From: Beroe forskalii
Taxonomy: Eukaryota > Ctenophora > Nuda > Beroida > Beroidae
Assembly (NCBI GenBank): GCA_011033025.1
Contig: WFMF01000091.1
Span: 248,001-312,000 of the forward strand
Reading direction: 5' to 3'
DNA length: 64,000 nt
The notes under the pieces are model-generated. The model had not been told where the DNA came from, ran no database searches, and was given only the letters and a program-made list of their open reading frames with translations. Made by a program: the position numbers and the translations under genes. Positions 679-42,430 of the stretch are shown here, piece after piece. The first letter of the stretch is position 1; the number at the start of each line of letters is the position of its first letter.

Positions 679-3600
679 CTGAATCCAGATGATGTTATTG
701 AATGGAATGGGTAATGACGTATAAAAGAGGAAAATGTACTAGGAAAGTAGCAACGCCAATTGCCGATTTGCTAACGATCGCTCATAGTCATATGATGTTT
801 GTATGTCAGTAGCTAGGTAACAGGTGGATCACAAAGTGTAAGGCATGATAAGGTTTCCCTTGGACAATGGACATTTTTCACAAATATGTCACTGACTAAT
901 AGTAATACACGTCAATCATCTTCCCGGCAAATACCCACTCCAAGTAAAAGAGTTGAGCCCTTGCTTTCCAAAAAGGTTTTTCCTCCCATTAGCAGCATGT
1001 AGAATCCTCCCAGTAAATTTAAATTGAATTTGTAACTAGTGAAACAGACGTCTGGAGGCCACAGGCCTCAAAACTAACAGAATTTTAACTTATAGTTCAG
1101 TCTAAGTACGGTGTATTTTAAATGCAAAATGTCTATTGAAAGATTGAAACAAGTATAATATCTAGTATCAGTATGCGGATTGCAGGGGTCTGGGGGCGGC
1201 AGCCCCCAGAAGCTGGACGTTGTTAACTGAACAGAATTGTCATCTCAATAAGATTTAACTCTTATTTCAGTATAATTTCAAAGCATTTGCTTGGCCCGTA
1301 GGCCGTATTTGAAATGAAAAAGAATGAAATCAAATAGGCAGTGTTCTGGGGGCGGCAGCCCCCAGAAGCTGGACGTTTTTTACTAAATAGAATTGTACTC
1401 TCAATAAGATTTTAACTCTTATTTCAATCTTATTTCAAAGCATTTGCTCGGCCCATAGGCCGTATTTAAGATGAAGAATTTCCACAAAGATGAGAGAATG
1501 AAACCAGTAAGCAGGGGGGCTGGGGCGCAGCCCCAGAAGCTGGGCGTTTTTAACTGAATAGAATTGTCATCTTAATAGGATTTCAACTCTAATTTCAGTC
1601 TAATTTCAAAGCATTTGCTTGGCCCGTATTTGAAATTAAGAAGAATGAAATCCAGTAGGCAGGGGTCTGGGGGCGGCAGCCCCCAGAAGCTGGACGTTTC
1701 CGACCTGATAGAATTGTCATCTCAATAAGATTTTAACTCTTATTTTAGTCTGATTTTAAAGCATTTGCTTAAGCCCGTAGGCCGTATTTGATATGAAGAA
1801 GAATGAAATCCAGTAGGCAGGGGTCTGGGGGCGGCAGCCCCCAGAAGCTGGACGTTTCCGACCTGATAGAATTGTCATCTCAATAAAATTTTAACTCTTA
1901 TTTCAATCTATTTTAAAGCATTTGCTCGGCCCGTAGGCCGTGTTTTAAATGAAGAATTTCCACAAAGATGAGAATGAAACCAGTAAGGCGTCAGCAGGGG
2001 TCTGGGGGCGGCGCAGCTGGACGTTTTTAACTGAATAGAATTGTCATCTCAATAGGATTTTAACTCTAATTTCAGTCTAATGAAATCCAGTAGGCAGGGG
2101 TCTGGGGCGGCAGCCCCCAGAAGCTGGAGGTTTCCAACCCGATAGAATTGTCATCTCAATAAGATTTTAACTCTTATTTTAGTCTGATTTCAAAGCATTT
2201 GCTTAGCCTGTTGACCGTATTTGAAATGAAGAATTTCCACGAAGATGATAGTGAAACAAGTAAGCAGGGGCCTGGGGGCGGCAGCCCCCAAAAGCTAGAC
2301 GTTTTAACCTGATAGAATTGTCATCTCGATTAGATTTCAACTCTTAGTTCAGTCCTATTTCAAAAGTTTTGCTAAGCCAAATTTTTTGGCAATTTCGCAA
2401 AATCCTCCCAGTATCAAAAAAATTCCTCCCATTAGCACTGCTAACCGTGCTAACTGTTTATGGAAACAAAGGTTGAGCCGGTGTATACCTTGAAAGAGCT
2501 GGTAAGAGGTTCTGGAGCCAGGAGTTGCAATAACACCATCCCACCGCGCTGACACTGAGAACTCGTCAATGCTGGTGAGGATAGGGGGCGCTAACTTGGG
2601 CAGTTTGCCAAGAATCTCCACTGTCAACTTCACTTCTTTTAGCAGATCGGACTTGAGTTTCACTCCGCCTGTTTCCTTACACAGCTTCTTGAGAACGGAA
2701 AACACTGACTTGTGGTCTCGCAATCTGAAGACCCCTTCTTTCTGAACGTTAGCAAATTATTGGACAAGACATCAAATTTTGAAAATTTCCACGGAAAGAT
2801 AGCAAGTAACCTGAATCATGAAACAGGTAATCTAGTTACTTGGTCATACAACCTAGTATTCGTTACCTACTAACCTAGTAGTAGTAGGTAGTAGTAAAAG
2901 AAACCTGGCTGGAGACGGCTCTGAGGGTGACAGCAGCAAACCAGGCCGTTTCGTCGTCTGGGTCGGTTATCAGTCGCACCAGCTGGTCTAGGATCAGCTC
3001 GCTGTTCACATTTCCCAGCAACCTGGTGAGAGAGAAGGCTGCTACTTATAATAATAATAATAATAATAATGTTTTGGCAGCTTAGCCAACTCAACTCTTA
3101 CATAAAAACTCTAAATCTACCCCAATTCCAAATCATACTGTAGATTGTTATTCAGTTTGGAATTGGTGATTAACAAACAAATCAGTGGACCTCTCATACT
3201 TCTATTTAGAGTCTGAGTTCGAACTGGCCAACGCAGTACGACGACGTCGTCCAAATGAACCATTGCTAACAACCTCACCCTTACGAATGACCCATTTAAT
3301 AGATGGTTCGTTTTGATCTTTTCCTTCAATTTTTCGACGAGTTCTGCTCTTGCTTTTCGTTCAGCAAATGTCCGATCCGGTGCGATGTAAACTTTGGAGT
3401 ACTCTTCAGAGCGTTTCAGATGCTTCGACCTTTCTAGCACCTTGGTCGCAATGAACTCACTCTGGAACTGAACTCGTAGTGTACAGGTTGATACGTCTTG
3501 TCCTATTTCGTCATCATGATGGAAATCGTTCGATTTCCTCAATAGTTCCACATAATTAGGTTTTATGGAAAACTCTAATCTATTCTCCATTTGTTTCAGT

Positions 3601-6600
3601 ACACCGTCAAGTTCACTTCTGTAGTCGAAGATATCATTCTCGAGATCAACGTGAATTCCTCGTATACCATAGAATACGAGGTTACATCTTCTGTTGGACG
3701 CTTTCATCTCGGAAACCATTTGCTTAGCCAATGTTTCGGGTTGATTGCTTACCCGTTGTTATAAGTTTCTGCTGACTTCTGTAGTATATCGGCATATGTT
3801 GAAACTTTTTCAGCCTCTTCATACACTTTTTTCTGCCTGATTCTCAATGTCTGCCTTGAGTTCCAATAATTTCTTTCCATTTTCTTTGACTTCTTCCAGG
3901 ATGCTGTTCATCATTTTAGTTTGGGAGGACATTCCTTCTTCAATGCTAGAGTTAAGAGTATCAATTTGATGTCTTTCCATTTTCATGTTTTCTGTTTCTT
4001 TCTTGTGGTTCTTGAGATATTTCTGGGCCTCATAAAGGCAGGTGAAAAGATCAAATGTCAACTCTGACATGGGCCCTTTGTTGAACTTTTTTTCAATATC
4101 TTTCGGTTTTACTCCGCCACTTCCTCCAAGCGTGAAAATCTCGGAACAAAGCTCTTCCATTCGTACCACCAGGGAATCCAGTTTACTCGTCATAGTTGTT
4201 CACAAGTCGCACAAACCACAAGGTGGTAGGTGGAGAGGTGGTGTCGCCTTACTGGTACTGTTAAAAGTCGGAGAGCGAAATTCGAAACAAACGAAAAGTA
4301 GAAATAAGAGAAGTGATGGGAGGAATGGAACATTTATAGCAGTATAATACTTATATCAGTACAATGTATGACATTAGAGCTCAGGTATAATGCTTATAGC
4401 GTAACAAGGCATCCACTGGAAATAACTTCTTACCGGGAGTGTCCCTCCTTGCTGTTGGCAAGGCAGCTGAAAGCGAAGCAAGCGTTCTTCCTCGGCCCTG
4501 ATTCTTTGTTGTACAGCATTTTAGTCAACGCAGTCATCTGAATGAAACCAAATGAGTAGGTTAACGGTGTCAAATCTTAGTCGAAATTTAGAACGTATTT
4601 GGGAGTAAAACTAATTGTTTACGCTTTATGAGTAGGTTTCACTCAGTGATCGCTCAAAGTTGAAGTTCATATTATTTGCGATAAAAAGAGCCAAAAAGTG
4701 AAATCAATTTTCTTTTTGAACAGTTACTGTACGCACCTACGATTTTACTCACGGTGTTTTTGAAGTTTTTCATGGCTAGGAGTTTTGATCTGGCATCCTC
4801 TCTTTCCAGTAACCTCCCCACAGCAAACGCCGAGTTCATACTGCTGCCTGAAATAAACCAGTCGGGCTTAAAAAAAGCTTTAGAGTTGATCATCCTTTCT
4901 TCTAATTTCGGCAGATCTTATCACTCTGAAACTTCCAAAACAAGTGAAAAGATATGAAAATTCCAAGGGTCGATGAAAAATTGTGATTGAAATTGGAATC
5001 AAAACTCTGAACCAACTGTTATTAACGCGATACTTTACTTTTTAAGGTTTAAATAGGTATTGATCATGGGATTTTTATTTCACAAACCTGGGTTATGTCC
5101 ACATAGGGAAACGCATAAGTTTGTGAGAACGAAGCTACACCTCTCATGACTCAGAATCTTCACAATGCCTTCCTGCGACAAAGTCAACCTGAAACAAACC
5201 GATCAACAGTGGTAATAAGCTGAAATATTGAAGATGATAGCATTTCGCCAAGAGCATATACAAGAGTATACTGTATAGTACACAAAGCTACAATATCTTC
5301 TTAAAAGTTTTGTAGCTTTTTACCGATAATTTGAGAACCTGGACAGAGACTTAGAAGCCAGGGAATCTTATGACCCAGAGAAGTCTTAAAGACGAATTTC
5401 CTAACAGTTTGATTTTTCTATGCGATCAAGCCACTTCATCGGATAATCAATTAATCAATTAATTAATAGCTTAATTGAGTTAATTTAGTTGCGCTAACTT
5501 CGATCAATCGACAGGCCCGTCGCGCGCGCAACAAAATGGTTGTTGATACAGTATTTGCTATTTTGAATTGCAAATAACACGTCGCGCGTTCCATAAAACT
5601 ATAGAAATGGGACCCTTAATTCGATTACTAGCATAGCGTTGCCATGAAGCAAAGATCACCTAGCAATGACGAGAGCTGCGTTGCTAGCCGCCCACTGGTG
5701 TGGATCCACCGTCAAGACACCCAGTATCGGAAGCGCATCGTCAAACGCTGCTTGTTGCAGAATCCAAAGTCTCCCTTCTGGGGACTCGGCCTGAAGAAAG
5801 GGGGAACATAGAAAGATAGAAAGTGTTTTTTAATGAAAACAACTAGGAAAATGTAAAAAAATCACGATTCAATAAGTTGCAAGCTGGTTCAAATGGTAAC
5901 AATGTTATCGCTGCAGACTTCGGTACTGACTTTTGATAGACGTGACCCTTTGGGAAACATGCATCAAGTCACAAAGAGTTAAAACTAAAGAAAATCAGTC
6001 AACACAGACTTTGCATATTATCTCTGCTTTTCAACTTTTCTAGAAGTCAGAACTTAGAACTGATTAATTACAAAGTTTTGTGAAAAACTATGGTTTGGTA
6101 GGAAAGTGCTCTACTGCACTTCTGTACTTCTATTCTACAATGCAAGGATACAATATGATAACTTGATGAAGCCTCATTGTTAAGTTGTTAACTCATACCT
6201 CTTCATATACCTAGCTTTGTTGATACAGGACTAACATGATCACTAATTAAGTAATTAAGCATGATGTTTAAGACTTACACTTACAATGAACAGCTAAAAA
6301 AGGAAGCAAGGATGTTTACGTTCCTCGGATTATGGTGGTAGTATTATATGCAGTGTCATAGAACCTACTTCATTGCAGTACATTATTAACGATTAACCAT
6401 GAATAATCATAACACTCGCATTAATCCACCTTTATAGTCAGTTAATTATATGAATGAACATTGGTGTAATGTGGTCGTCATAAATTGGAATTGTTAATGA
6501 CGGCTTACTCAGATTCACAGTGCACGGTAGAAGAATTCAATGCTTCTTCAAGTTTCACACTGTGCAGTGACAATGACAGTGTCAATAACTTAGGTATTTA

Positions 6601-9600
6601 CTTTTGAGATTACACGATGATGAATACATTGCAACAATAAACACTTGTAACAGCTCACATGTTATGCATCCAAAATATTAAGAAACTGTGTTTTTTGAGG
6701 AACTGATTGATATTGTACGATTAACAAACGAATGGGAGTGTGATATCGAAAATTATCACACGAGGCGTCAGCCGAGTTTGACAATTTTCAATATCACACG
6801 ATCCATGAGTTTGTTAATTGTATTATTGACAAAACGACCCTCGTCTGAATTCAACATTTTTATAGTTTTCGAGTCATAAAATCAACAATTTATTTAACGA
6901 TATTCTGCTCTATTATTCCGCCACTGTACAGTAGTTCTATAAAGGAGTGATATATCGATAATTATCACACTGGAGTTTGAGCCACGGGAGGGTAATAATG
7001 AGCAATTACCAAACAAATCTGAGTGAGTCATCGAAAATTATCTCACGACGATAATTTTCGATAACACCCGGACCGTGAGTTATTTAATTGCATTATCACC
7101 ATGAAATGATACGGCGAAGTCAGTTAAACTGAGCAAAACATATTTCCTCGGCCCTTTGGTGCAAATTCTTCACACGGGCAATTTGTCTCAGCAATGTCCA
7201 GCACTCTGCCAACAAACACTCATTGAGTAATTTTAACCATTGCTTCTCCAGATTTGATCATAACAATATTTTCATGTACCAGTCCTCTTCATCATAGCTC
7301 CAAACCAAATTCAGCTTGATTCGCCAAGTTCCTAAATTTCACAAATTAGAGTTGGACTGAGTTCAAAACATGACAAAGAGTCTGCAACTCTCGTATTGAG
7401 TTATGTAATGATATGTAATTATGTTAATGTTTCCAAAAATAGATATAATAAAAGAATAAATGTTATGAAATAACAGAGCAACAGTTTTTGGAACATTTTT
7501 AAAATGTCACAATGAATCTGGCCGATAAGCATGAAATGGGTGATATGGGATACATCACCAACAGATACAGAAGGACTTTGGAATATGATGATTTGATCGA
7601 TCATCAATCATCATTTAAACTTTAAACTTTTTGACGTGGTAGCAACCAAACAAAAATTATTTCTATCATTCCAGTTGAGTAGTTTGACCCTATAGAACTC
7701 GGCTCTGCCTTACAGCACTTGTTTTTTTTTCCTTCTCGGATCTGTCTTGAACAATTGATATTGACACGCTTTTTCTGTTTTTCGTTCTGATACCAATATT
7801 GAAATTATAGCACGATGCGTGGAATTCTTGGAGACCAATTCCAACTTTTGACTCCGGTATGCCTTCAAAAACTTATAAACATCATACTATCATAGCTCTA
7901 TATGGTGCTGTTGTAGAACGTAGTTATCGTATTCATTTACTACATGTACAACTCACGACAGTTTTAATAAGGTGTTTAAAACTGTCGGCCATGTCATTGA
8001 TAGCACATACAAAAGTAAAATGTTAAAATGTGATTTCCACAAGCAACATCAGTCATTGTGATACAGACACAGCTTAGTTCGCAACTACAACAAGCAGATA
8101 CTTCTGATAGGTGTATATGTATGTGTGATGCGTCAACAACCGATAGTATCTTTTAGGATTTACAGCGTGAACAACACTCGAAATGACGGTCACTATTGCT
8201 GATTTGAAGGTTATCTGGATCCTATTAGCAACTCAGTGATTTGGGAAGGTATGTTGATTTGTTGAAGGCCCGTTCTATAGAACATTATAACCTAGCTATA
8301 GAGTAGCTTTGTTGAAGGGATATGATCATATGATGCATATTAGTAATATCAGTCATTCGCTATATTCATCATTCGCCCAATGTTAATCTATAATTTCTCA
8401 TATTCAATGCGAATTACGAACGTTATAATACTACTCATCTTATTAAAGTACTTAGGAGAAAACAAAAGATCTTTTTAATGGCGAGTGTTTCCCACCGCCC
8501 CAGATACTGTTAAATACGCAATAAAGATATCAAAGGACTGAGATTATCTCATCAGCTCATACTGTTGCGTGGAATAGATTTAACTCTGTAGCGGAGCTCG
8601 GTAAGCAATTGTCGTATATAAACTTTTAATATACTATGATTATGAATGAGAATAAAATGTAGTACTACATTAGAAAGGTGTTTCTGTGGCGGCACCAGTC
8701 CAATTCCTGCATCATATCCACTGCAAGCACACAGCGCATGTTACAGCGAGAAATGTATCATGAACGAAGGCAATGTACAAAGCATAGCTTCATTCTTGGT
8801 CTAAAGTCCCAACCTTCAGACTTGACTCCTCCTTTTGGACAATTGGTACAGTGGCACCCCCTGCCTTACAGGCACCTCGCTCCTGAACTTGAAATATTCA
8901 ACCCACCGCCACTAAATTCAAGAGGGTTTTCATAGAATCATAGATATGTTCATTCGATTGATATGCAAGATATTATATTCAATCATTTCCATGTTAGAGA
9001 CTAATAAATAGGGACTAATAATTTGAAAATTTGGATGTCGGAGTTCGGACTCCCCAAAAGGTTTCCCCGAATCGTTAAAAAGCTTTGATAACGGACGAAA
9101 AAATGAAGCGATAAAAAGCAATTTTTTTCGGAAAAGAAAATAAACTTACGAAAATTGTATGTTTCTCAGGGAATTAATTTTTGACTTTCTTCTTCCACCC
9201 CATCGTTAATTGCACTGATTATTTCGTGAGCTCCCGTAAATTGCCCAAATCCTCGAAATAACAATGTAATATGCTGCGTGGTTACCGCATGATCACCTAT
9301 GAAATTCCCAAGTAGAGAAGTAGCTCTTATCTCAGAACCTCTTTAGCTCTTTATCCATTATCGAATATCACGGCTGATAAAGTGTGACCGGTATTTTTAG
9401 AGGAGACTGCTTCTCGTTATGTAGATACTGATACAGTAAGTGGGATTCCGCAGCGTTGCCATAGCAACCTATAGCAACACAATTAGAGGATAATAGAAAG
9501 TGAATTAGTACATGCTACATGATAAGTGCAATCCAGTGCAATCGTAACAAAACAATTACACACCTACTCTACTATTCTATTATTTAGGTAAGCATTGAAA

Positions 9601-12600
9601 TAGCTAAAAGTTAACCAGAATATCAATGACGTAGTTTTTAGAGTGCTTCTCAATGTTCCTTCATTGGTCCACTGCTTATCTAAGTAACATTCCTTGGTTA
9701 TGTTATCATAACATCATTCAGTAGATTCCTTGGCCAAAGTGGCAGCAAACAGATCGACTTAATGGCTTCATACTTGCGGTTCCGAGCAATACTTATCATC
9801 ACAGCAGCTATCCTAAATATAGGAGGAATACCACCCTTAGAAATACCATCCTTAGGGGTACCGCCCTTCGGTTTACTGCTGGGTTTAAGTAGGCGTTGTC
9901 CGACGTAGTCTGACTGATTCGGACAACGTCAGAAAAAGTAGGCCTAGCCTCTAGAATCTAGAGAGATGGCAAGTTGACACTTGTACACTATAACTGTACT
10001 ACCTGCTACTGCTGCTGCTGTCTGCATCGGTACACAGTACAGATGTAGGTACTTAATAAGTACTTATGCCTCTATGTGTAAAGGCTGCCGGAATGCGGCA
10101 TGATGGTGCACATAACTCCCAAAAACACGGACACTCCGTGATTTCCTGTACATACCGGCACTCTACTACACATACTGCTATACTGTACACCACATACACT
10201 GCTCAGTGAATACTCTCAAACAGCTAACTATTACTACAGGTCTGCCACTAATAGACGAGTGTAAACCTCCTCGATGCAGTGTTATGCTCAAAGAGTCATA
10301 CCAATATTCTACATTTCAAAGAATAATTAGATTTCAAAATGATTGATTTGTATGATAATCATCCAAGTACACAAAGTGATCGCGTTGTTAGAAATTAAGT
10401 TATGTGGAGGAAGCGCATGCTAAATTATAAGATTATAGCTTTAAAAGGGACTCATAGTGTCTAGTGATTCCTTTAGAAGAATTAAATATATGATTTTATC
10501 GCTTTGCTCCAGGCAACATCAAACCATGTTACTATAGCAACATCTCTACATGTTGCTGTACTTCTATTCCATGTTGCTATAACAACGTCCTCCTACTCAC
10601 GATGTTAGCGATAGTTCCTGCAGAGTTCATCACCACATTCTTATCGTCTGACATGAGCATGTTCACCAGAGCAGTGAACAGGGTCGGATTGTTCTGCCCC
10701 ACAGTGGCCGTGTTCCTGGGCACTTCCAGCACGTACTGTCTGCACCGCGGGTGCTCCACGATAGTCCCCAGGATGTGAACTACTGACTCTGTCAGGCTGC
10801 GGGAGAGTTAGGGTTACCAACCATTAATCCGAGGATGTGAACTACTGACTCTGTCAGGCTGCGGGAGAGTTAGGGTTACCAACCATTAATCCGAGGTTGT
10901 GAACTACTGACTCTGTTAGGCTGCGGGAGAGTTAGGGTTACCAACCATTAATCCGAGGATGTGAACTACTGACTCTGTCAGGCTGCGGGAGAGTTAGGGT
11001 TACCAACCATTAACCCGAGGATGTGAACTACTGACTCTGTCAGGCTGCGGGAGAGTTAGGGTTACCAACCATTAATCCGAGGATGTGAACTACTGACTCT
11101 GTTAGGCTGCGGGAGAGTTAGGGTTACCAACCATTAATCCGAGGATGTGAACTACTGACTCTGTCAGGCTGTGGGAGAGTTAGGGTTACCAACCATTAAT
11201 CCGAGGATGTGAACTACTGACTCTGTCAGGCTGCGGGAGAGTTAGGGTTACCAACCATTAATCCGAGGATGTGAACTACTGACTCTGTCAGGCTGCGGGA
11301 GAGTTAGGGTTACCAACCATTAATCCGAGGATGTGAACTACTGACTCTGTCAGGCTGCGGGAGAGTTAGGGTTACCAACCATTAATCCGAGGATGTGAAC
11401 TACTGACTCTGTCAGGCTGTGGGAGAGTTAGGGTTACCAACCATTAATCCGAGGATGTGAACTACTGACTCTGTCAGGCTGCGGGAGAGTTAGGGTTACC
11501 AACCATTAATCTGAGGATGTGAACAACTGACTCTGTCAGGCTGCGGGAGAGTTAGGGTTACCAACCATTAATCCGAGGATGTGAACTACTGACTCTGTCA
11601 GACTGCGGGAGAGTTAGGGTTATCAACCATTAATCTGAGGATGTGAACAACTGACTCTGTCAGGCTGCGGGAGAGTTAGGGTTACCAACCATTAATCCGA
11701 GGATGTGAACAACTGACTCTGTCAGAATGCGGGAGAGTTTAGAGTTAGGGTTACCAACCATTTATTATTAACCGAGGATTTAGATATTGCTATCAATGTG
11801 ACCTTTGATTAATATTAGGATTGAGGAAGTTATTAGTCTCGAAATCGATAATCGTCAGGTTCAGGAGAGTTAGGGTTACTGAACCATTAATCCGTTGGAT
11901 GCTAAAAACTACTCACTCGGAGCTACGGTTACCTGTCCCTGCGGAAATTTAAATTGCAATTCAAGTATCAAGTCAATTTTTCTATTCTTACCACATTGAA
12001 GGAATGAAAACAATTAATACATTGGTACGCCAGCTGCAAATTTTGAAATATGAAAAGTTTATGAAGGAGCAAAATTTACAATAATCCGTTTGTCACTTTC
12101 AGTAATGCTACTGTCCCATGAAGGCCAGTTTTGTCTAATTACAGATTGTCAGGCCGACGAAGTTAGGGTTACCAACTGCAATCTGGAGAACCTATTCTGT
12201 CATACTGAACGTTGAATTACCAACCATTGATTTGAACTAAGATTCCCAAGCGGGAGAATAAGTTACCAACCATGCCCAATTTGATCAATTTGATTTCAGG
12301 CTGTAATCTTAAATTTCTTTCAATAATTATGATTAACATAATTTAGGGTTGAAACCATTTTAATCATCGATTTAATAAATTGACCAAACCATTGCCACTG
12401 ATTCATGAAACTGATTCTATCGCCTATGGAGCCTCCGGTTGCCAGCCATACCCATTCACTATCTTTAGATCTTCAATTTTAAATGTAGAAAGCGTTAAAA
12501 TTAACCGAAAACCACGACGCAGTTAGTTGGCAGCGTATACCAACCAAGCACCAGGATGTGAACTACTGACTCTGTCAGGCTGCGGAGAGTTAGGGTTACC

Positions 12601-15600
12601 AACCATTAATCCGAGGATGTGAACTATTTTCCCGTTCATAGAAGTTTGATAAGGGTTGACCATTTTTTCAAGAAATAATTTAACCCCATGAGACTGCAAT
12701 GGAAAAGGAGTATGGTTTATACGTGCCATCTCCAAATTATATATAAGATGTTTCTAAATAAAGAAGGTACAGGTTATCACTCAATATTTTATTTGTTGAG
12801 GCAGGGGTGAGCTGCGGAGTACAGCTAATACGAAGTGTTACTTTAGGTACTCTTATAGCTTCAAAAGGGTGCATGGCAGAGTGCCAATACCAAGTTTCAA
12901 ATAACCACCCAATGACCTAACTATGTAATTACTATCATGTCTAATAGGCACTCAAATAATGTATCATTAGTTACCCCATGAAAACTGATACATTGTTCTG
13001 GGCTCTACAAAGGCAGAACGCAATATTCGATGCAGAGCTTGGCGTTGCCAAAACGACCAAATACTGACAATGTATGCGGTGGGTTTATGATGCATCCTGA
13101 AGGTCCAAACACACCCCTATACCATGGGTGATCCAAATATCTGGTGATAAATGTAAAGCATAATTACATAATTAAATTTTTATATTCAGTGGATGCAATA
13201 TTTACTTATTAGTTTATTAGTCAAAGGGAGGGCACATATTCAATTAAAGCTAACTAGAAGCTAATGAGAGGGATTTAAATATAATTTAATCTAACAATAT
13301 ACTAAAATCTCAACACAATGCCATAGATTTTTAAATAAATATTAAATAAATAGTGAATTGCGATGGCCTATATTTTCCTTGATCAATTATTAAATCTATG
13401 AATACGATCCATTTGGAACACATTCATCTCCGAATCTATTCTTGTGTACGAACTGAACCTCAAAATAATGCCAGGTTTTCCCCATCTACATTATTTACAC
13501 CCCATTTATGCAGTTTTACCCCAATTTCTCACCCAAACTACAGCTTGAGACCTGATGTAAGGTGGTTATGGTGTAGGAGTGATATCTTGTTGCCTAGCAA
13601 CCACTGTGTTAGATGAGATTGCAGATTTAATACACAGACCTGTATGGACACACCTCTAGTATTACAGAACATCACGTCACCCAATACGTCAATATTTACA
13701 GTAATTCATTAATTCAAGTATACCGTGTGTTGATATTATGATACATGAAACATTTCAAAACATTTCATTCATCAGCAGCTGTGATGGATGGTGAAGTAAA
13801 AGTATCGATATTATCCACAATTCAAGAAATGCAGGACTCACCCAATCTCAAAGTCAGTGGATCTAGACGGGGTGTACTTGAAAGGCTGACTTAGCATCTT
13901 GAAAGCAGAGTAAGCAACGATCAATCTCAAAAACACACTTTATACGGCCCCAGCTCAAAACACACCACACAAAAGCACTTTCAATGCACAATTAAATGCA
14001 CTTAAAAATCCCACTGTCACAATAAAGCTAGGCTGCCGGTTCCTATCTTTCTAAATTAGATGGCAAGTATGCTTAAACTTTGTAGTAAGTAACCTAATCG
14101 CTGAGACTATTAAGACGGCTTAGAACGGCACATAGAATGTTTACTGCGATATACGCTTGTGAACGAAATGCTATAAAGCAATGAGAGATTCTCTGGAACA
14201 GGTTTAGGCATTTCGATATTTACAATTTTCATTCAAATACCAACATGAAATAAAGTTATTACCTACTTTATAACGTTATAAAGTAAGGCTATTCGCTACT
14301 TCATTCAAATATCACAACCCATTTTCCCGAATAAGCGAATACGACCATTTGGTCATAGTATGAACTATAATATGTATCATGTAGAGGTCAAAGCTCAAGT
14401 TAAATGCTTATAGTTAATGCTTAACAAGGTTAAAAGTGGTCAAAACTCAAAATCCCAGAACTAATTCAGAAAAAATTCAGTTTTACCGACTTAGTGTTTA
14501 GTATTCCAGCAAATCCCGATGGGATTAGTTGGAAATACTCCTGTTTCATCACGTGTATGTATAGATCACATACTGCATAAATGCATAGGTATTCGAGAGA
14601 GAGAGAGACACTATAAAAACTCCCTTCAAAAACACGGATCGAATTACCTCCCAAGATGTCGTTGCAATAGAAGTCTTAATGTTAGTAGATGTTAAGTCAC
14701 TGATCGGTACAGGGTTCTAGCGATATGAATGGTGGATGAGCAGCAGCTACTCAATGACAAAATTTGGTGATCATCAGCAAATTGGTGCTGTTAAAAGCTT
14801 ATTTTTACGGGCAGTTATTACCTTTAAGTACTAATAACATCATGCTTTCTTCCTTTTGTTGTGATTTTGTGATGATGCAGCTACACGTTGTGCACTTTCT
14901 CAATCTATTTTTCTTACTTCGCACAAGTCTCTATCATATAAAGCGTCATATTTTCAGTTGAACTGTTATTTAATATTGAATCAAGCTTCTAATAAACCCC
15001 AGAAAATGACAATATTTGGAGACAACTTGGCCACTTCAAATGACACCACAGAAAACTGTGGGTTTGAGACACACGACGGCACTCCCATTGACACAGCCCT
15101 CAACTATGTTTTCGGACTGCTGCTTGTGGTGCTAGCCCTCACTTCCTTGCTCGGTAACTCTGGTGTTCTATTCTTCATGATCAAGAGGCACGCCTTCTCT
15201 GAGTTTGAAAGGATAAGGAGGGGCATGACTATAGCCCGGGCAGTCATTGACCTGCTCTACAACACCAGAACACTGTACGTGGCGTACGTGCTTCTGCGTA
15301 AGTACCACGAGCCTCTGTGTGGCAGGAAAAAGTCCCTGGAAATAGTCATCCTGTCCATTACCACCTACAGCCTGTCAGTGCTCTCCATATTCATGACTTT
15401 CCTCATCTCTCTGCTCGACTGTGCCAATATCAAAATTCCCCTATTGAGGGTTAATTTTAGACACAGCTACAGAATTATCATATCAGTTTTCACGGTGCTC
15501 AACTTCCTAGGTATTTTTATTCTTGAGCTAGTAGGCCCAATATGTCAGCGTGACTGGTTCAGTCCAACCCAACTCCCATTTCATGGAAAGAGGTATGGGA

Positions 15601-18600
15601 TGCACAATTTTTTCAAATGGAGTTTTTTTGCATTTAGATTAATCTTTCTCCTCCTACATGTGATTTTGGTTGTCTTCGCTATAAGGAAACTTCAAAGACT
15701 GGTCGCAGTCATTAAAATCAAACATGTCAATCACGTTCACGTGAGTATGATATTGTCAATGGCTGGGAACTGCATTACTATTTTTCTTGCTCTTGTCAAA
15801 GACCTGGTCACAAAATTTGTGGACTTTGACATAACCCTTACAGAAGCTTCGGTTGAAACACATCCATACTACCAAGTGTATCTCCTGTTTTTTGTAAATG
15901 TCTTCATGTTATCGACACTTGCTGCCTACAACCCCCTTGTCTTTATAAGGAACTCCTCTATTGCCAGACGCACAATTTATATTGCTATGACAGAGGCTGT
16001 GTCCTTCACTGGTCTCAGTGCTTCAAGGAAGTTCTCTAGGACCCCTGCAGTACCTGGAACTTTATATTCGCCCTACAACAGGCACGACAACTCGGAGGAC
16101 AGTGCACAGGCTGAGGATCAACACAGACCACTTGCTTCACCAGAATGGAAGAGTGACTATAATCGATGGAAAACCTGTCAAACGCTTTCACTGACATTTT
16201 GGACAAACTCAATAGAGTCAAGAGAGCCAGTGTCCGGGACAAATGTCACGTTTCCCCTGAGTCACATTCCTTCACAGCCAGTCATTTCAATACCAGTTCA
16301 CCGACTCAAACACCCCATGACATTGCCGTTCGTGGGGCGGGGCTCCTATGGCAAAGTTTATAAATTCACAGATGAAGCAGTTGGGTGCAGTGTTGCCATC
16401 AAACACATTGATATTCCTTCTATTGGCGCAAGGTGTGAAGTGGAGAACGTGAAGAAAGAGGTAAGTAATTTGAGCAAGTTATGTTTGCTCTTTACATTAG
16501 TACACTCAATGAAAAGAACAAGAATTGTGCCTGCGGGCGCAATTCTTGTTGTCCATTTTTCCTTAATCCTTATGCAGGCGCTTAATTTCCCTCCCCCACG
16601 CTTGATGTTGACCTAGTAATATCTCAATGCTTATCCCAGTGACTAAAGTCTTACCTTTCAAAAGTTGGTAGTCCGGGTAGTCGTGACTACCGGGAAATTT
16701 TTTTGATTTACCGGGAAATTTTTCAAAAATCGAGATTTTTCGAAAATGTTCATTGGAATCTTCCCAGGATTAAGTCTGGTACTTTTCAGTTATTTTCCAG
16801 TAGTTTTTATTTTAAGATTTTCCCAGTGGTAGGAAATCTTCCTAGTGGTAGGAAATCTTCCCAGTGGTAGGAAATATTCCCAGTGGAAGGAAATCTTCCC
16901 AGTGGTAGGAAATCTTCCCAGTGGTAGGAAATCTTCCCAGTGGTTGGAAATCTTCCCAGTGGTAGGAAATCTTCCCAGTGGGTAAAACAACTTCCCAGTG
17001 CTACTAAATCTTCCCAAGTTCCCAGTGGTACTTGGTAGGAAATCTTCCTAGTGGTAGGAAATCTTCCTAGTGGTTGGAAATCTTCCCAGTGGTAGGAAAT
17101 CTTCCCAGTGGTAGGAAATCTTCCCAGTGGTAGGAAATCTTCCCAGTGCTCCAGTGGTTAGAAATCTTCCCAGTGGTAGGAAATCTTCCCAAGTTCCCAG
17201 TGGTGGAAATCTTCCCAGTGGTAGGAAATCTTCCCAGTGGTAGGAAATCTTCCCAGTGGTAGGAAATCTTCCCAGTGGTAGGAAATCTTCCCAGTAGAGT
17301 AGAAAGCATTGAAAATATTCACCTGTGGCAGACTGTTAAATTAAACAGTCCTGCGTTAAATTATCAATACCGAATTAAATTTAGAGGCAGATTCAGATAC
17401 AAAGAACCCTGAAAATTTTCGCCTCACGGCAGGCTGTTGTGATCAAATTTTGTTGATAAATTTGTCTTAGACACAGCCACAGGTGTGAAACATTGGAAAT
17501 GTTGTAATCAAATTATCGATACTGTATTAATTTAAGAGGCAGATTCAGATGCAAAAAACCCAAAAATAACTCCCCAATAAATCTTATTTTTTTGTGATCA
17601 ATAATGTACATTACCAAATTGATCCCTAAACAGGCAGATTTAGATGCAAAAACCTAAAATTTTCGCCTAGCAGGCTGTTTTGATCAATTTTGTTGATAAA
17701 TTGGTCTTAGACACAGCCACAGGTGTGAAACATTGAAAATGAATAAAATCAAGTTATCAATAAAGAATTGACTTTAGAGGCAGTTTAAATGCAAAAACCA
17801 AAAATTTTAACTGTTCAAATGGCTTTTGAGAAGATAAATTATGTTACACAACTGGTCTAGACACAGTCAGGGTTGTGAAACATTAAAAATTTTCGCTTGC
17901 AGCAGGCTATTGTAATCAATAATGTATTACCAAATTGTATTACCAAATTGAACTTAGATCACAAACTAACTTTAAAAAAGGTATTTCACTGATAACGCTG
18001 TTTTGATCAAATTTTGTTGATAAATTGATCTTAGCATGTTTCAGGTGTGGAACATTAAAAATTTTCTCTTGTGAGGGACTGTTGTTATCAAATTATCAAT
18101 ACGGAATTGACTTTAAAAGGCAGATTCAGATGTAAAAAAACCAAAAATTTAAAAACTACATGGGGGCTGATTGTGATTCATTATGTGGCTTATAATTGGT
18201 CTAGACAGTCTTCAATCGAAACTTTGAAAAATTTCGCCTGCTTACCTGAGCCGCAGAAAGATCAGTTAAGACTTAGGATTGCCATTTATATGTGGTATTT
18301 TTGCGAGCGTAGTGAGCAGGCCACAGAAATCATAAAACGGGGTCTCAGAGGAAATTAAAGAATTTCTGGATGCTAAAGCATGGGTACTTTTTGCGGCGGA
18401 AGAAGGGCAACAGAAAACCAAAAATTTAATTTAGTATCAAAAATTTTGGCCACTACCGGGAAGAAAAATGCTTTTGAAAGGTAAGACTAAAGTTTTCATA
18501 TCGACTAATGTCCTGGAAATTTATTTTCGATTCGACTATTTCAAAATCAAAAACACGATTTTTTTGCCAAAAAACCTATAGTGTCTGACAAATGTGAAGA

Positions 18601-21600
18601 AGGTTTGACTACTCCTTGAGAAATGACGTAGAAAATTGAATCAATATCACGATAAAACACTGAAATAATTATGAAGCAACGAATTTTCCTCGTATAGTGG
18701 CCACATTATTTACATGAGTTCGAACGTCTCCGTGTATAGGGAATCTCCATGCGTGCATGGCTGCCTCTTCTATCGATCACCTTGACCTGCATTTGCAGCA
18801 GGTCACGGGGTTGTGCAGCAAGCCCGAGACTATAGTCAAATTTAAAATTTTCATTTTCTTAGCTTATCTTCAGTTTTCTGATAGCAAATAATGATCCGTA
18901 ACAAATAATGATACGTAACAGTTCATCAGAAAGATTTAAATCATATCACAAAAATTATAAGTAATCAGTTTACTTCAGCAGTTAGAGTGAATGACTAATG
19001 TTCTGATAGCCGCCCTTCGGGCGGCAGAAGTGAATGACAAATGTTTTGATTGCCGCCCTTCGGGTGGCTGATGGCTCTTGCCTAAATCAGTAAACCATGC
19101 TCGAAAAACCATGAATTTCGGTAAAAAGGCACGGACGGACGGACGCCACAAATATTATAAAGGAGCAATCCGGGCACTTTCCAGAAATTACAGTAGTTGT
19201 ATTGCAAATCTGGACCTGCTATGCACATATCCTATTTCTCACCTTTCCAAAACCACGATCTCTGCCAACCCTATCATTTGCCTTTTTGTTTAAAAAATTA
19301 TTATAAGATTAAATTGCTGAAAATAATTCCTTATTTTTCTATGTAAAGCACACTGGGGCTTCTCTGATCTCTCAGAATGAAGTGTGTGAAAGTTCAGAAA
19401 TTGGCCTAAGGGTCCCACACACAGGGCCCAACCAAACAAAATTTGGCAACCGCAAACTAATTGCCCAAGGCCCTGTATATTTGACACATGATATAGATAT
19501 CAAACCAGCTATTGGGGACTGTCGCTTTAACAATGTAATTTACATCTTCATGAGTAAATTTGTGATAAAAATTATATTGGAAGGGCCACCTGCATATTGC
19601 ACCGACAAGTCAATGAATCAATGAACACCAGGCGAGGTTCTATAATAAGATCTTGAATGATCATTGATCTCACCATTGATACTTCTAATAAGGGCAACCC
19701 TGACAGATGACCATAATTTTGTTCTAGAGATGACATTAAAAGTTAATAGCCATTACCAAATTTTCATCCTTCCCAATAGTAGCCCTAGAACTCGTGATGT
19801 TAATTAGCAAGAATAGATTTAAAAAACAATCAAGCCTTTTGGAATAAATTCAGTTGATCCTTTTGGCAAACCTTATCTAATCATTTCCCTGTAACTATTC
19901 AGTCTTAGATTGTTTCTGATTTTGAGTTTTTGTAATCTATTTTCTTTTTAATTTAAGATTAATTTTGATAAATCTTAATTGTTACTGATAATTTGAAATA
20001 TGTGAAAATACTCCATCTCTCAATTTAAAGATTTAGCTTGTTGACCATTTGTTTCATCGCTGGTCAAATTTTTGGGAAAAACTAATCTTTAAAGAGTTTT
20101 GTTCTTCTTTTTCTATACCTTCATTATCTTTAAACTCACTCAGCTATAATCAAGTAATTTGATTCCAGGTCCACATAAACAGTAAGCTGAGTCACAGTAA
20201 CATAGTTCAGTACATTGGGTGCTGTGACAGTGAGATGAGCAGCTGGTGCATAATAATAGAGTACATGAGAGGTGGCTCTCTTAGAGGACTCCTTCTTAGA
20301 ACTAGAGACAAATCAGCAAGTCTTAGTAGAGAATACACCTCAAACTACCCTCCAATTGCATCCCATCAAGAAGCTACTTCTACAGTCCTCCACCACAGTA
20401 TTATTCTTAAGTATAGCAGAGAGATGATGTCTGGGCTCACTTACCTACACTCAAACAACATCATGCACCGAGACTTGAGAGCAGCCAATGTACTAATTTC
20501 TTCTGCTAACATAGCAAAACTTGGGGACTTTGGCCTTTCTAGAAAACTTGAAGCAGTGACAAGAGTTGTGGGAGATTATACACCAGATGTTGGACATCCA
20601 TTCTGGAGGTCCCCAGAGACAATGGTGAATGATGAGTGTGGACCAGCAGTCGATGTGTGGAGCTTTGGGATCACCTTACTTGAGATGATATGGGTAGATC
20701 CACCCTTCATGAACCAGGAATCATTCAGGTATGTGTATGGCCTGTGTAAACACAGGCATGTGCCTCAGATCCCATCGTTTGTAGATGAGAGGATACAGGA
20801 AATGCTGGGGATGAGTCTACAATTCCAGCCACAAGATAGACCCTCCTCAGAAGATATGCTAGCCATCATTGAGGGTATGATATCTGACTCAGTGACACCA
20901 TACACCTTTACACCTACTGTGTGATTGGAAATAAACGAAAAATCATATCATGCAATGTGCAAGTCCATCAAATGAAAGATCAAATTACAATAAAAAAGAT
21001 TACAAACATGTTCTTATCAAGGTCTTACTGAGAATAAACAGATATGGTTATAATAGAGGAAATGTGTGAGGAACCCTGTAAGTTTAGGAACTATTTTAGC
21101 AGTGATTACAACTTTATTAATCAATTTAAGTCATTTGGAGCTGTAACTGTGGCAGTTTGAACTGTAGTTTTGTGTGTGCTGGTTACGGACATGTTATTTA
21201 GCTATTTAAACTAACAACATGCACACGAAACTACAGTTCAAACTGTCACTGTAAATCAGTATTGTCATCCCTCCAAACATTCATTTATTAAGTTATTAAT
21301 GAAAAATTTCCATACTTCCATGCTCACCTCTCATCGTCAAACTCCAATAGATCAACTAATCCAGCAATAGCTTTACTTGCCATACTATGTTGTAACAGCT
21401 TGTATATCTGAGGGGGTTTTGATTCAGTTTTGCACATGAGTGTTGATTTTTTCCTGCTGTGCCTAAACTACTGCAGTCTACACATTCAAAAGTTCAAAAT
21501 ATGAATTCAATTCGATATAGTTATTTAATATGATGCAATATAATCATATTTTGGTTAAACTTTCAAGTTGGCATTCAGACATATAATATGGGATTACCTA

Positions 21601-22401: not shown

Positions 22402-23303
22402 TTTATAAATGCTAGGTGATCAGATTGTAGCCATCTATGTCACCATAACCTATATAGTATAAGTAGGATGGGTTATTGTTTATGAGAATAAAAACACAAA
22501 AATCAATTGTTATTATTTATTATTTATTTATTACTTCTACTACATAACATTGTGTCACTCACCGCTGAAAGGATATATTAAACTAATATGCTAATAACTT
22601 GATAAATAGAAATAATTAAAAAATAACCTATTTACAACTTTAAAAAAAACTAAAAACTGGTGACACAAGCCCTCTATTTGTAGGGAAAAATGAGATGAAA
22701 CTTCAGATGGAAAAATTTGATGAGCTTTTATTACTTAAATCCCAATAAATACGAAAAGTCTACCAAAAAACCTTTCATGCATGAGTTTAATGCTTGAAAT
22801 GATCCAGAGATTTAGAAATAGGTAGAAAGTACCAAATTCACCTTATATGTAAGTATAAATCCCATTGATAATAATTACACTGAACTCAGTCCATTTCAAC
22901 GAACTATACAAGAATCTACTATCACGAAATAAGTAAAGAAGTGTTTTAAACTTACAACACAACACATAATAAATTAACTAACTGAGAATGTTGTGTCACA
23001 CTTTGTGGAGTTCCTGAAGAAGAGATATTTTATCTCGAAACTGACAGTTGAATAGCGGTGCAAAGTGTATGGGTTTGATTTCATATTTGAGAATTTTTGT
23101 GTTTCACTGAAATGATCAATCACTTCAAACAAGTGTTAGAGCTGCACTTATATAATTTCAATATTCAACCAGTAAGCAATTGATCATCGCTTTGTTATCG
23201 CTTTCGTTGCTTGTCTTATCAGCTCTTGAAATCTTGCAAGGCTTGTATTGCAACGTGCATTGTGTGATATTTATACATTGTACTATACATTGTACAGTGT
23301 GTA
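22402..23303. other. Intergenic region between two divergent genes
   Basis: It separates the armadillo/FN3 start (minus) from the ORF1 start (plus). TATATA near 22450, about 50 bp before the armadillo ATG, is a possible core promoter element. Confidence 0.3.
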
Positions 23304-24248
23304 ATGTCGCTCCCATTTGAAGATACAAGTCCCTATCTTAGGGGGATTGGCATCGACAGACCTTCTGACAGGAAATTCCGACCGGCTGATGTTCCGGCAG
23401 TACGAAGAGCCATGCGTCTTATCTACGGAGACATAGGTACAGTGTTAAAGTACAACCATGACTGTGCTCGAGATATTCCGCATGAGACTCTCATGAAGGT
23501 GAGGAAGGAGAAGCTGTGTGAGTGGCTGGAGAATGTGCTTTGTATCACGGAGCACTACATGGACCCTATCATGAGGGCTGCTTGCGGACTAGCGGAATCT
23601 GTTGGGGAACTCATTGCTGAGAGGGTTGCTGATCAGAAGACCATCATTGATCTGCAGGAGCAGATCATCACAGAGAAGGACAAACAGCTCTCAAAGGTAC
23701 AGGAGACAGTGAAGACTGGGCTGAAGACCTACGCCAGTACTGTGGAACAGAAGTGCTCGGAAGCTTTTTCTGGCAGAGTTCAAGAAACTGTGAAAAGTGA
23801 GATGAAGTCTTACGCTAGTATTGTTGAGAGCAAGTGCTCTGAAGTACTGTCTGAGAAGAAGATTACCGCCGCAGTGAAGAGTGCAGTCCAGGCGGAGGAT
23901 AGATCACGCAACATGATCATCTTCGGATGTGAAGAGGAAAGCGACGAGATTGTTGAGGAGAAGGTTAGTGAAATCCTCACACACCTGGGAGAGAAGCCGT
24001 CTGTCGTGCTGTGCTCAAGAATGGGTGCTATGGCTAGGGCCGGACATCGTCGACCTATCAAGGTAGTGCTACGGAGCTCGGACCAAGTAAGGCATGTTTT
24101 GCGAAAGGCAAAGAACCTGAAGGACATTGCTTCTTGTAAAAGCGTGTTTGTCTGCCCCGACAGATCAGTGGAAGAACGCCTGGAGATCAAGAAGAAGGTG
24201 GAAGAACGCAAGCGTCAACGAACTGAAACTGCCCGCGAGATAACATGA
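23304..24248 (+). CDS. LINE ORF1-type nucleic-acid-binding protein (314 aa)
   Basis: Single open frame from ATG 23304. Residues 1-110 form a helical region without a known domain. Residues 110-190 are a coiled coil with an internal duplication (KVQETVKTGLKTYASTVEQK and RVQETVKSEMKSYASIVESK). Residues about 200-300 are an RRM-like domain (RNMIIFGCEEES, RRPIKVVLRSSDQVRHVLRK, VFVCPDRSVEERLEIKKK). ORF1 proteins of LINEs bind element RNA and trimerise through the coiled coil. A frame break at the end is likely: after the stop another frame gives VFITGNKRDWLT, resembling the usual ORF1 terminus. No reverse transcriptase follows. The 5' flank contains a short hairpin, GAGATATTTTATCTC. Confidence 0.7.
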   Translation: MSLPFEDTSPYLRGIGIDRPSDRKFRPADVPAVRRAMRLIYGDIGTVLKYNHDCARDIPHETLMKVRKEKLCEWLENVLCITEHYMDPIMRAACGLAESVGELIAERVADQKTIIDLQEQIITEKDKQLSKVQETVKTGLKTYASTVEQKCSEAFSGRVQETVKSEMKSYASIVESKCSEVLSEKKITAAVKSAVQAEDRSRNMIIFGCEEESDEIVEEKVSEILTHLGEKPSVVLCSRMGAMARAGHRRPIKVVLRSSDQVRHVLRKAKNLKDIASCKSVFVCPDRSVEERLEIKKKVEERKRQRTETAREIT

Positions 24249-24815: not shown

Positions 24816-26800
24816 CAAAAATTAGCCTCCATTAGCCTCCATTAGCCTCCATTAGCCTCCATGGAGGCTGAGTGGAGCCTGAGTGGAGCCTGAGTGGAGC
24901 CTGAGTGGAGCCTAAGTGGAGGCTAATTTCAAAAATTAGCCTCCACGGAGGCTAGTGGAGGCATGAGGCTAATTTTTGAAAAATAGCCTCCACTATGGAG
25001 GCTATATTAGGCTCCACTAGCCTCCACTCAGCCTCCACTCAGCCTCTACTCAGCATCCACTCAGCCTCCATGGAGGCTAAACTTTTGGTTTAGCCTCCAC
25101 TAGCCTCCACTCAAGAATTAGCCTCCATTAGCCTCCACAGAAATTTAAAAAGTCATTTTTGTGGAGGCTAAAGCCTCCATATGGAGGCTAATGGAGGCTG
25201 AGTGGAGGCTAAGTGGAGGCTGAGTGGAGCCTAAATCAATAAGCCTACAAAACACAAATTTCTTGCTGAAAATGGTGATTTATGTGTACTAATGTGAAAA
25301 ACAATATATAGCTTCAAACTTTCAGACAGCTCCAACTGTCCTACACTCAGCCTCCACTAGGCTCCACTCAGCCTCCACTAGGCTCCACTCAGCCTCCACT
25401 AGGCTCCACTCAGCCTCCACTAGGCTCCACTCAGCCTCCACTCAGGCTCCACTCAGCCCCACTTAGCCTCCACTAGGCTCCACTCAGCCTCCACTAGGCT
25501 CCACTCAGACCCCCACTAGCCTCCACTAGGCTCCACTCAGCCTCCACTAGGCTCCACTGGCCACCACTAGGCTCCACTAGGCTCCACTAGCCTCCACTAG
25601 GATCCAATAGGCCCACTAGCCTCCACTAGGATCCATTCAGCCTCCACTAGGCTCCACTCAGCCTCCACTAGGCTCCACTCAGCCTCCACTAGCCTCCACT
25701 TAGCCTCCACTAGGCTCCACTCAGCCTCCACTAGGCTCCACTCAGGCCCCACTAGCCTCCACTAGGCTCCACCCAGCCTCCACTAGGCTCCACTGGCCAC
25801 CACCAGGCTCACTAGCCTCCACTAGATCCAATAGGCTCCACTAGCCTCCACCAGGCTCCACCCAGCCTCCACCAGGCTCCACTCAGCCTCCACCAGGCTC
25901 CACTCAACCTCCACCAGCCTCCACTAGGCTCCACTCAGCCTCCATCCATTCAGCCTCCACTAGGCCCACTCAGCCTCCACTAGGCTCCACTCAGCCTCCA
26001 CCAGGCTCCACTTAGCCCACCAGCCCAGTGGAGGCCAGTGGAGCCCATTGGAGGCCAGTGGAGCCTAGTGGAGGCTGAGTGGAGCCTAGTGGAGGCTGAG
26101 TGGAGGCTAATGGAGGCCGAAATGGAGGCCAGTGGAGGCTAGTGGAGGCTGAATGGAGACTAGTGGAGGCTGAGTGGAGCCTAGTGGAGGCTGAGTGGAG
26201 CCTAGTGGAGGCTGAGTGAAGCCTAGTGGAGCCTAGTGGCTTAGTGGAGGCTGAGTGGATTCTAGTGGAGGCCTAGTGGTGCCTAATACTAGACTTTGGT
26301 CTATGTTACAAAATGTACTCTTTTTGTAAAAACATGACATAAATTTAATTTTGTGGAGGCTAGCATATTATCTGTGTTTTTTCATGATTTTAGCCTCCAT
26401 TTGGAGGCTATAGCCTCCACTAGCACTGTCAAAATAGCTTCCATAGAATCCAAAAAATGACTTTTTAAATTTCCGTGGAGGCTAATGGAGGCTAGATCTT
26501 GAGTGGAGGCTAGTGGAGGCTAGTGGAGGCTAAACCAAAAATTTAGCCTCCATGGAGGCTGAGTGGAGGCTGAGTGGAGGCTAGTGGAGCCTAGTGGAGG
26601 CTAGTGGAGGCTAGTGGAGGCTTATATAGCCTCCATAGTGGAGGCTATTTTTCGAAAATTAGCCTCATGCCTCCACTAGCCTCCGTGGAGGCTAATTTTT
26701 GAAATTAGCCTCCACTTAGCCTCCACTAAGGCTCCACTCAGGCTCCACTCAGCCTCCATGGAGGCTAATGGAGGCTAATGGAGGCTAATTTTTCGCAAAC
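24815..26800. repeat. 2-kb foldback array of GGAGGCT units
   Basis: Units GCCTCCACTAGGCTCCACT run through the left part and the reverse complement GGAGGCTAGTGGAGCCTAGT through the right part from about 26030. Edges mirror each other (AAAATTAGCCTCCATTAGCC at left, GGCTAATGGAGGCTAATTTT at right), including matching inner motifs with GCATGAGGCTAATTTTTGAA. The whole could fold into one long hairpin. Confidence 0.85.
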
Positions 26801-27582: not shown

Positions 27583-28494
27583 GTTGTCAGACGTCGTCTG
27601 ACCATTATTTCAGTGAAATAAGGGTCAGATGAAACTTTACGCGATATTTTTACGCCGCGCATGGGTATAGAATATGTTCGTACGTGCGCGATGAAGCAAT
27701 TACAGCATCGCTGCGGCGGTAAACGTACATAAATCTGGCAAATCGTGACAAATTTTGAAACGAATAAAATTGCATGTGGGCGGGCTGCAGGCTGGCCATT
27801 AACCGGATTTGACTGTTTAAAATTATGGATATATGATGGTAGAGTTGGTTGAGTCAATTGTTAGGCACTGTCTGAGCACTTTCGAGTACCATATTACTCG
27901 GTAATTCGCCAGTAGTTTTAGGCAGAAAATACCCGGGGTCATGGGCACTTCTTGGCGGGTAGTTTGAAGAATTCGTGAACTCTGCCATTCATTTCACGTT
28001 CCAGTGCCCGTTTCCAAGATCAAAATCTGTACATTTTTGTTACAACTGCCCTGCCACAGATTTATTTTTTTGACAAGAAGCCGTTACACTTACAGCACAG
28101 ACCCATAACAAATAACAATTTCATGGCTATAAAGTTGAAGGAAATATAAGATTTCAACTGAGATTTAATTTCATATTCTTAAATACATTTCATTGGGCAG
28201 CACCCAAATCTCTAAATCGTCCACAGCACCAGATGCACGACAGTGTCACACTGCCATGAACCGCAGCACTTTGTTTGGCACAGTGTCACAACTGTCACAC
28301 TGACATGAACCGCAGCACTATTTTTGACACAGTGTCAGTTGTCACACTACCATGAACTGGAGCACTTTGTTAGGTAGACACAGTGTCACACTATCATGAA
28401 CCGCAGCACTTTGTTGTGTCACACTATTGCGAAAAATGTTGCTAAATACAAATTGTGTTTCTCAACACAACCCCAGATTACACACTACTACAAA
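27583..28494. repeat. Left arm of a ~0.9-kb inverted repeat pair
   Basis: It matches 42431-43323 in reverse complement. The outer end is GTTGTCAGACGTCGTCTGAC and the inner end is ACACTACTACAAA. It includes five copies of the CAGTGTCACACT minisatellite motif (28200-28430). Confidence 0.9.
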
Positions 28495-35243: not shown

Positions 35244-35420
35244 TTCTCAATGTATTTCACGATGTGCACAAAGTCAAAGCACGGTTGCAATGTTATCAGA
35301 TAATTGCTAAGATAAGAGAGGTGCAACCAATTGGTTGCACCTCTCTTATCTTAGCAATTATCTGATAACATTGCAACCGTGCTTTGACTTTGTGCACATC
35401 GTGAAATACATTGAGAAATG
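35241..35420. repeat. Perfect 180-bp palindrome
   Basis: Arms 35241-35330 and 35331-35420 are exact reverse complements over 90 bases with no loop; the centre is CCAA|TTGG. The left edge is the ATG of the ORF1 relic (35243-35241), so each arm is that gene's 5' UTR. Confidence 0.95.
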
Positions 35421-42400: not shown

Positions 42401-42430
42401 TGTGACACTGTGTCAAACATAGTTCTGAGG
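39420..42430. repeat. 40-bp minisatellite
   Basis: About 75 units of GTAGTGTGACACTGTGTCAA plus ACAGAGTGATGCAGTTCATG with two main variants (ACATAGTGCTGCGGTTCATG). The array continues to about 42660, interrupted by the inner edge of the right inverted-repeat arm. Confidence 0.95.

Follow-up and report, generated by a model that had tools for sequence, protein, structure and literature searches.

The window analysed here is a 64,000-nucleotide stretch of the genome of the ctenophore Beroe forskalii (C1036:248001-312000), and the feature studied is a gene that joins a complete protein kinase to the inner end of a seven-transmembrane (7TM) receptor of the type that includes hormone and neurotransmitter receptors. 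The gene lies on the forward strand, as do all of its features given below. Its model encodes a 736-residue protein in two joined exons, with an ATG at 15006 and a TGA closing exon 2.

Gene structure

Exon 1 (15006..16460, 485 codons) is a single open frame that encodes the N-terminus, the 7TM region, a linker and the beginning of the kinase N-lobe. Intron 1 (16461..20168, 3,708 bp, GTAAGT...TTCCAG) is in phase 0 and lies inside the kinase fold, as a preliminary description of this DNA had proposed, and a repeat scan places a 19-bp minisatellite within it (16820-17295). Exon 2 (20169..20924) encodes the remainder of the kinase, including the HRDLRAAN, DFG, GDYTPD and SPE motifs, and the stop. 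Downstream of the stop, an AATAAA at 20930..20935 is the nearest candidate poly(A) signal, with further candidates starting at 20989 and 21033.

The fusion is independent of splicing, because the one frame of exon 1 already extends from the 7TM region through the linker to the Gly-loop and VAIK. From stop to stop, this frame spans 583 residues, while 500 mononucleotide shuffles of this DNA yield no frame longer than 196. Since its length exceeds that of the shuffles and 10 other members of the family show the same 7TM-linker-N-lobe order, the frame is not a product of chance. The MTIFG start is also common to all family sequences that have an N-terminus (11/11).

An artefact, i.e., a misassembly or two adjacent genes, is an explanation to which we give almost no credence. 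The two-exon join is a predicted model and its 3.7-kb intron carries a repeat, both of which speak for an artefact, but exon 1 by itself can be read without a break from helix 1 to within the kinase N-lobe, and both a paralog of the same structure on another contig and an annotated full-length homolog in Mnemiopsis agree with the fusion. The preliminary claims of one gene with a complete kinase, and of a fusion that is not an assembly join, are thus upheld. On sequence evidence, the fused receptor-kinase gene is real and conserved.

Family members

We looked for paralogs in a genome of 216 Mb (1134 contigs). One, L011 on contig C1091, matches the window gene in its 7TM-linker-kinase order and in where its intron falls, but this intron is only 222 bp (donor GTTTCT, acceptor TTTCAG), compared with the 3,708 bp and minisatellite of the window copy. 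The two proteins share 58% residue identity over 716 aligned codons, and their codon positions 1/2/3 differ by 33/22/63%. The third-position excess is seen by region as well: 39/22/60 in the 7TM region, 33/40/82 in the linker, 16/8/54 in the N-lobe and 29/19/63 in exon 2. Synonymous divergence (dS) is saturated in all regions except the 7TM region, where it is 2.83. Synonymous change is therefore near or beyond saturation, so we use these codon-position differences and claim no ratio of nonsynonymous to synonymous change; the ratios of 0.00 that were computed reflect an infinite dS. At 82% identity to L011, the exon-1 part of the N-lobe is conserved better than the other regions compared, and the linker is 67% identical over residues 389-435 vs 31% over residues 346-388.

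Three protein searches against 5.77 billion proteins, two of which scored only about 8,000 candidates, gave 239 distinct proteins in their listed matches (best 120 of 400, 8 of 8 and best 120 of 260). Ten of the listed proteins belong to the family (P0001-P0006 and P0121-P0124), and the only named ones among them are from ctenophores. P0124 is Mnemiopsis leidyi ACHWQZ_G007576, a 712-residue 'hypothetical protein' with full-length 7TM region and kinase, and P0004 is Bolinopsis microptera LOC134819340, a 413-residue model beginning at helix 7. Seven of the remaining eight are open frames which leave the kinase right after VKKE, at the position of the window intron. The eighth, P0006, ends before VKKE, in a stretch whose motif suggests a translated sequencing adapter. 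With a cut of at least five hydrophobic stretches, 9/239 search proteins are retained, and all are from the receptor-kinase family.

Receptor half

The class A-like 7TM region, with a helix-8-like extension, covers residues 1-345 (15006..16040) and is defined by AlphaFold2 helices, homology to stand-alone receptors and the fold of the Mnemiopsis homolog. The preliminary description suggested a profile search and a structure prediction, and both were run. Pfam gives a match for the kinase and none for the 7TM region, and AlphaFold2 predicts seven long helices (27-60, 66-97, 111-139, 151-175, 197-235, 239-268 and 288-333; mean predicted local distance difference test score, pLDDT, 52.4), the last of which is lengthened as if by helix 8. 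Kyte-Doolittle hydropathy with a 19-residue window finds six hydrophobic peaks above a cut of 1.3 and seven above 1.0. However, residues 1-345 have on average 5.7 peaks even when shuffled, so the peak count does not discriminate the protein from sequences of the same composition, and we rejected it as proof of a 7TM region.

None of the seven fused sequences scanned, the window protein included, has a Pfam 7TM match at E <= 10, a PDB sequence search with a 7TM profile gives no match at E <= 10, and Foldseek with the window model gives none at E <= 0.001. VIA-align with the same model has classes B, T and F among its 50 listed matches. The predicted model of the Mnemiopsis homolog, by comparison, fits class A structures, and one stand-alone sister receptor from the Beroe genome matches the class A family PF00001. 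Judged from the sisters and this modelled fold, the 7TM half is class A-related, in line with the preliminary description.

Stand-alone sisters and changes in the fused receptors

Kinase-free sister receptors are present in the same genome, and four of them were aligned with the 11 fused receptors. One locus, L022 (C175:391000-400999), holds three class A-like stand-alone receptors in tandem at 3953-7901, two of which are 77% identical, and no kinase match is listed on its contig, C175. The PF00001 match comes from one of the four sisters, L022b, with an E of 1.8e-4 that is below the gathering score.

N51 in helix 1, D82 in helix 2 and N309-P310 are kept in all aligned receptors (15/15), and the 11 fused receptors also share F313. 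The proposed NPLVF of helix 7 (residues 309-313, 15930..15944) is therefore sound, placed by the family alignment as the NPxxF motif. For the proposed GN of helix 1, the asparagine is invariant but the glycine is not, L011 and P0002 having AN.

The DRY position separates the two groups. All four stand-alone sisters have VRY, ten fused receptors have LNY or MNY, and the window copy has LDC (residues 137-139, 15414..15422), with D where the other ten have N and the sisters R. The missing arginine noted in the preliminary description is therefore borne out across the family (0/11 fused vs 4/4 stand-alone).

Other residues follow the same division. C18 (15057..15059) and C105 (15318..15320) are each present in 11/11 fused and 0/4 stand-alone receptors, as are W205 and K265 (helix 6). 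C105 is thus a candidate partner of C18, and the two may form a new extracellular disulfide. An earlier pairing of C105 with C180 stands only in its first member, because C180 occurs in the window copy alone (1/11), which rules out a C105/C180 disulfide as a family feature. Note that the 11 fused receptors are not independent samples, because P0123 and P0124 are 98% identical, and all of the fused-receptor changes could have arisen on one ancestral branch.

Linker and kinase

The juxtamembrane linker covers residues 346-435 (16041..16310), and its second half (16170-16310) is conserved. Across the family, it has the form RT-hydrophobic-S ... PLNHIPSxPxISIPV, i.e., it includes a conserved R/Q-T-hydrophobic-S stretch. 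This stretch would suit a built-in GPCR kinase (GRK; GPCR, G-protein-coupled receptor), in which signalling through G proteins or arrestin persists and the attached kinase adds phosphate to the tails of its own or adjacent receptors, leading to their desensitisation or to the recruitment of arrestin. Such a model has been proposed in print for oomycete receptors fused to tyrosine kinase-like (TKL) kinases (PMC6033456). Set against it are the coupling arginine, missing from every fused receptor but kept in the sisters, and the lack of any GRK among the named matches listed, many rows of which are nameless. We regard a built-in GRK as unlikely.

The exon-1 part of the kinase N-lobe (16311..16460) contains GRGSYG (16335-16352) and VAIK (16392-16403). 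Exon 2 adds HRDLRAAN (20466-20489), DFG (20526-20534), the GDYTPD activation loop (20571-20588) and SPE (20610-20618). Pfam matches PF00069 (Pkinase) at residues 442-716 with an E of 1.4e-48 and PF07714 with an E of 1.1e-44. A Pfam ABC1 match to the kinase protein is at chance level (0.21), and a scan with NCBIfam, whose models are bacterial and archaeal, was uninformative.

Four complete kinases can be compared: those of the window, its paralog, Mnemiopsis and Bolinopsis. The G-loop glycines, VAIK lysine, alpha-C glutamate, HRD, asparagine, DFG, APE glutamate and GDYTPD are invariant in all four, and with its catalytic residues intact, the kinase is predicted to be active. One could instead suppose that the receptor is an ordinary G-protein-coupled one and that the kinase mostly provides it with a scaffold or a regulatory arm: its activity is a prediction from sequence, and NPxxF and the helix-2 aspartate are retained in all fused receptors. 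We think this improbable, given the invariant catalytic residues and an exon-1 part of the N-lobe that has diverged less from the paralog than the other regions compared.

The window kinase has HRDLR, which differs from the HRDxK of STE kinases, and the motif therefore does not settle substrate specificity. In the Mnemiopsis whole-protein model, the kinase part is below pLDDT 50 almost throughout, so we make no claim about an interface between receptor and kinase.

Kinase group placement

We placed the kinase with an LG+G4 tree of 40 tips, read unrooted, which contained the four ctenophore kinases and 36 references. These references were picked by us from the 229 non-family search proteins, so sampling is limited, and some group labels were guessed from source names. 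For example, tip P0010 was guessed as RLK (source name CAMK-CHK1) and falls on the STE/NEK/PLK side. The ctenophore kinases group together (support 100), the 20 tyrosine kinase (TK) and TKL references (15 and 5, respectively) stand apart from all else (98), and the STE/NEK/PLK side, with 16 references, is set off with a support of only 56. In the best tree, the ctenophore kinases attach between the STE/NEK/PLK and TK/TKL references, and a grouping with STE is not recovered.

Approximately unbiased (AU) tests of constrained trees reject a grouping with TK (p 0.0007), with MLK+RAF (0.010) and with NEK/PLK (0.022), the last of which is not rejected by the Shimodaira-Hasegawa test. A grouping with all TKL is also rejected (0.003), but that constraint makes TKL exclude TK as well, so its rejection may partly stem from this. 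Alone among the five groupings tested, the one with STE is not rejected (p 0.48).

Among the best 60 of 123 matches in a PDB profile search, MEKK2 is first (5e-45), followed by a chain named only as a tyrosine-protein kinase (1e-42), which we take to be a JAK, and then by STE20 kinases. STE11/STE20 kinases (MEKK2, MST, PAK, TAO) are thus the best profile matches. However, the top non-family matches in the kinase search, plant MAPKKKs at 1.5e-38 (among the best 120 of 260), are only 29% identical, and the best tree does not place the window kinase inside STE.

The preliminary description called the kinase TKL-like, and we drop that assignment on the kinase tree (where the TK+TKL group excludes it), the AU tests and the PDB ranking. 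As far as sequence comparison goes, the kinase appears to lie outside TK and the sampled TKL kinases, a sample that excludes LISK and published GPCR-TKL/K kinases. It is nearest to STE by resemblance.

Known receptor-kinase fusions

Fusions of 7TM receptors and kinases are already known elsewhere. They occur in oomycetes, amoebozoans, choanoflagellates and sponges, and the authors of PMC12716839 state that they know of none whose function has been characterised. For metazoans, GPCR-bigrams have been described as rare or even non-existent (PMC5784254). With sponges on record, the ctenophore family is another version of a known arrangement (PMC12716839).

GPCR-TKs, reported from choanoflagellates and (by kinase query) sponges, likewise have an N-terminal 7TM region and a C-terminal protein kinase and likewise occur in early-branching animals. 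Apart from sponges, the section on them reports no metazoan lineage that has them, and it makes no mention of ctenophores. Their kinases match metazoan tyrosine kinases, whereas a TK grouping is rejected for the window kinase. GPCR-TKL/Ks, known only from acanthoecid choanoflagellates, have the same architecture as the window protein, with kinases given as TKL and 'other non-tyrosine kinase domains'. Their 7TM regions cluster with no other GPCR, whereas that of the window protein has class A-like stand-alone relatives. Both the likeness and the distinction are drawn from the published description (PMC12716839).

Other systems share the layout. Oomycete GPCR-TKL bigrams (17 of 44 bigrams in P. 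infestans) also have the catalytic domain C-terminal to the 7TM region, but they belong to a distant lineage and, unlike the window protein, carry a TKL kinase (PMC5784254 and PMC6033456). GPCR-PIPKs of the RpkA type, known from a sponge and a choanoflagellate, also place a kinase C-terminally, but theirs is a lipid kinase and that of the window protein is a protein kinase (PMC5784254). Ordinary class A GPCRs (PF00001) hold the helix-1 asparagine, helix-2 aspartate, NPxxF and the Mnemiopsis model fold in common with the fused receptors, which differ in having no DRY arginine (11/11) and no Pfam 7TM match (7/7 scanned).

The ctenophore family could be a member by descent of the GPCR-TK or GPCR-TKL/K families, and hence an ancient animal-stem fusion. 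The domain order is the same, and in Holozoa such fusions occur in choanoflagellates and early-branching animals (PMC12716839). We nevertheless give common descent little weight: groupings with TK or TKL references are rejected, the genome also encodes kinase-free relatives of the receptor half, and the 9/239 proteins with at least five hydrophobic stretches are all of the ctenophore family (among the best 120 of 400 and 120 of 260, which do not include the published sponge and choanoflagellate sequences).

The keyword-matched text of two ctenophore genome papers (PMC11184263 and PMC11797021) makes no mention of such a receptor. Literature searched by title and abstract start likewise holds no report of a ctenophore 7TM-kinase protein, all bioRxiv preprints and many subscription papers being outside its scope.

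Proposed mechanism

We somewhat favour reading the protein as a receptor Ser/Thr-type kinase, derived from a receptor of the class A (rhodopsin-family) type, that signals via its own kinase with reduced G-protein coupling. An extracellular ligand would change the helix bundle, and the conserved linker motif would relay this change to the N-lobe. The kinase would then be switched on by phosphorylation at the invariant GDYTPD stretch, probably between two receptors, and would phosphorylate downstream proteins, most likely on Ser/Thr. It may perhaps act as a membrane-tethered MAP3K-like kinase, a role that is our most specific guess and comes from sequence resemblance. Coupling to G proteins would be reduced or lost. 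The preliminary description suggested signalling through the kinase instead of, or besides, G proteins; the former is now likelier because the stand-alone sisters keep the arginine, but it is still something we infer.

A bolder version, which we hold tentatively and with less confidence, is that ctenophores independently evolved a receptor Ser/Thr-kinase class. In this scenario, a stand-alone class A receptor captured a MAP3K-like kinase, gained a Cys18-Cys105 clamp on its extracellular side, lost its coupling arginine and now drives a kinase cascade as a single molecule. Together with the kinase-free, arginine-bearing sisters that persist in the genome, it would make a natural before/after pair.

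Ctenophores are often regarded as the sister group of all other animals, and with their family the known 7TM-kinase fusions probably gain a further kinase type and a further origin. Fused and kinase-free sister receptors allow G-protein coupling after kinase gain to be compared directly. Mnemiopsis can be kept in the laboratory, and because it has the fusion and arginine-bearing sister receptors exist, the effect of kinase gain on coupling is directly testable.

Rest of the window

Outside the receptor-kinase gene, a frame at 58470-58883 (-) matches AP_endonuc_2 (E 3.2e-12) and probably belongs to a gene resembling endonuclease IV, as one of its exons. Frames at 23268-24248 (+), 34379-35246 (-) and 3117-3758 (-) resemble retrotransposon ORF1 by eye, with no Pfam match over the gathering score, and one at 63386-63862 (-) is DnaJ-like by eye, with no Pfam match at E <= 0.1.

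The window also has tandem repeats. In a satellite array at 44544-53886, a 52-bp unit with strong AT skew is present in about 180 copies that match at 89%. A 40-bp satellite at 39774-42444 has a unit that starts TGTGTCA and ends TGACAC, and 11 kb upstream of it, a 49-bp unit at 28244-28423 appears by eye to be the same sequence reversed in orientation. Two arrays of 21-bp units, at 25344-26017 (CACTCAGCCTCCACTAGGCTC type) and 26027-26285 (AGTGGAGGCT type), are by eye opposed in orientation and so form a large inverted repeat. An AATG tetranucleotide repeat at 61000-62189 (about 297 copies) produces long spurious FIHS reading frames. Finally, a 62-bp unit is repeated 15.8 times with 97% match at 10770-11747, which is probably a recently expanded array.

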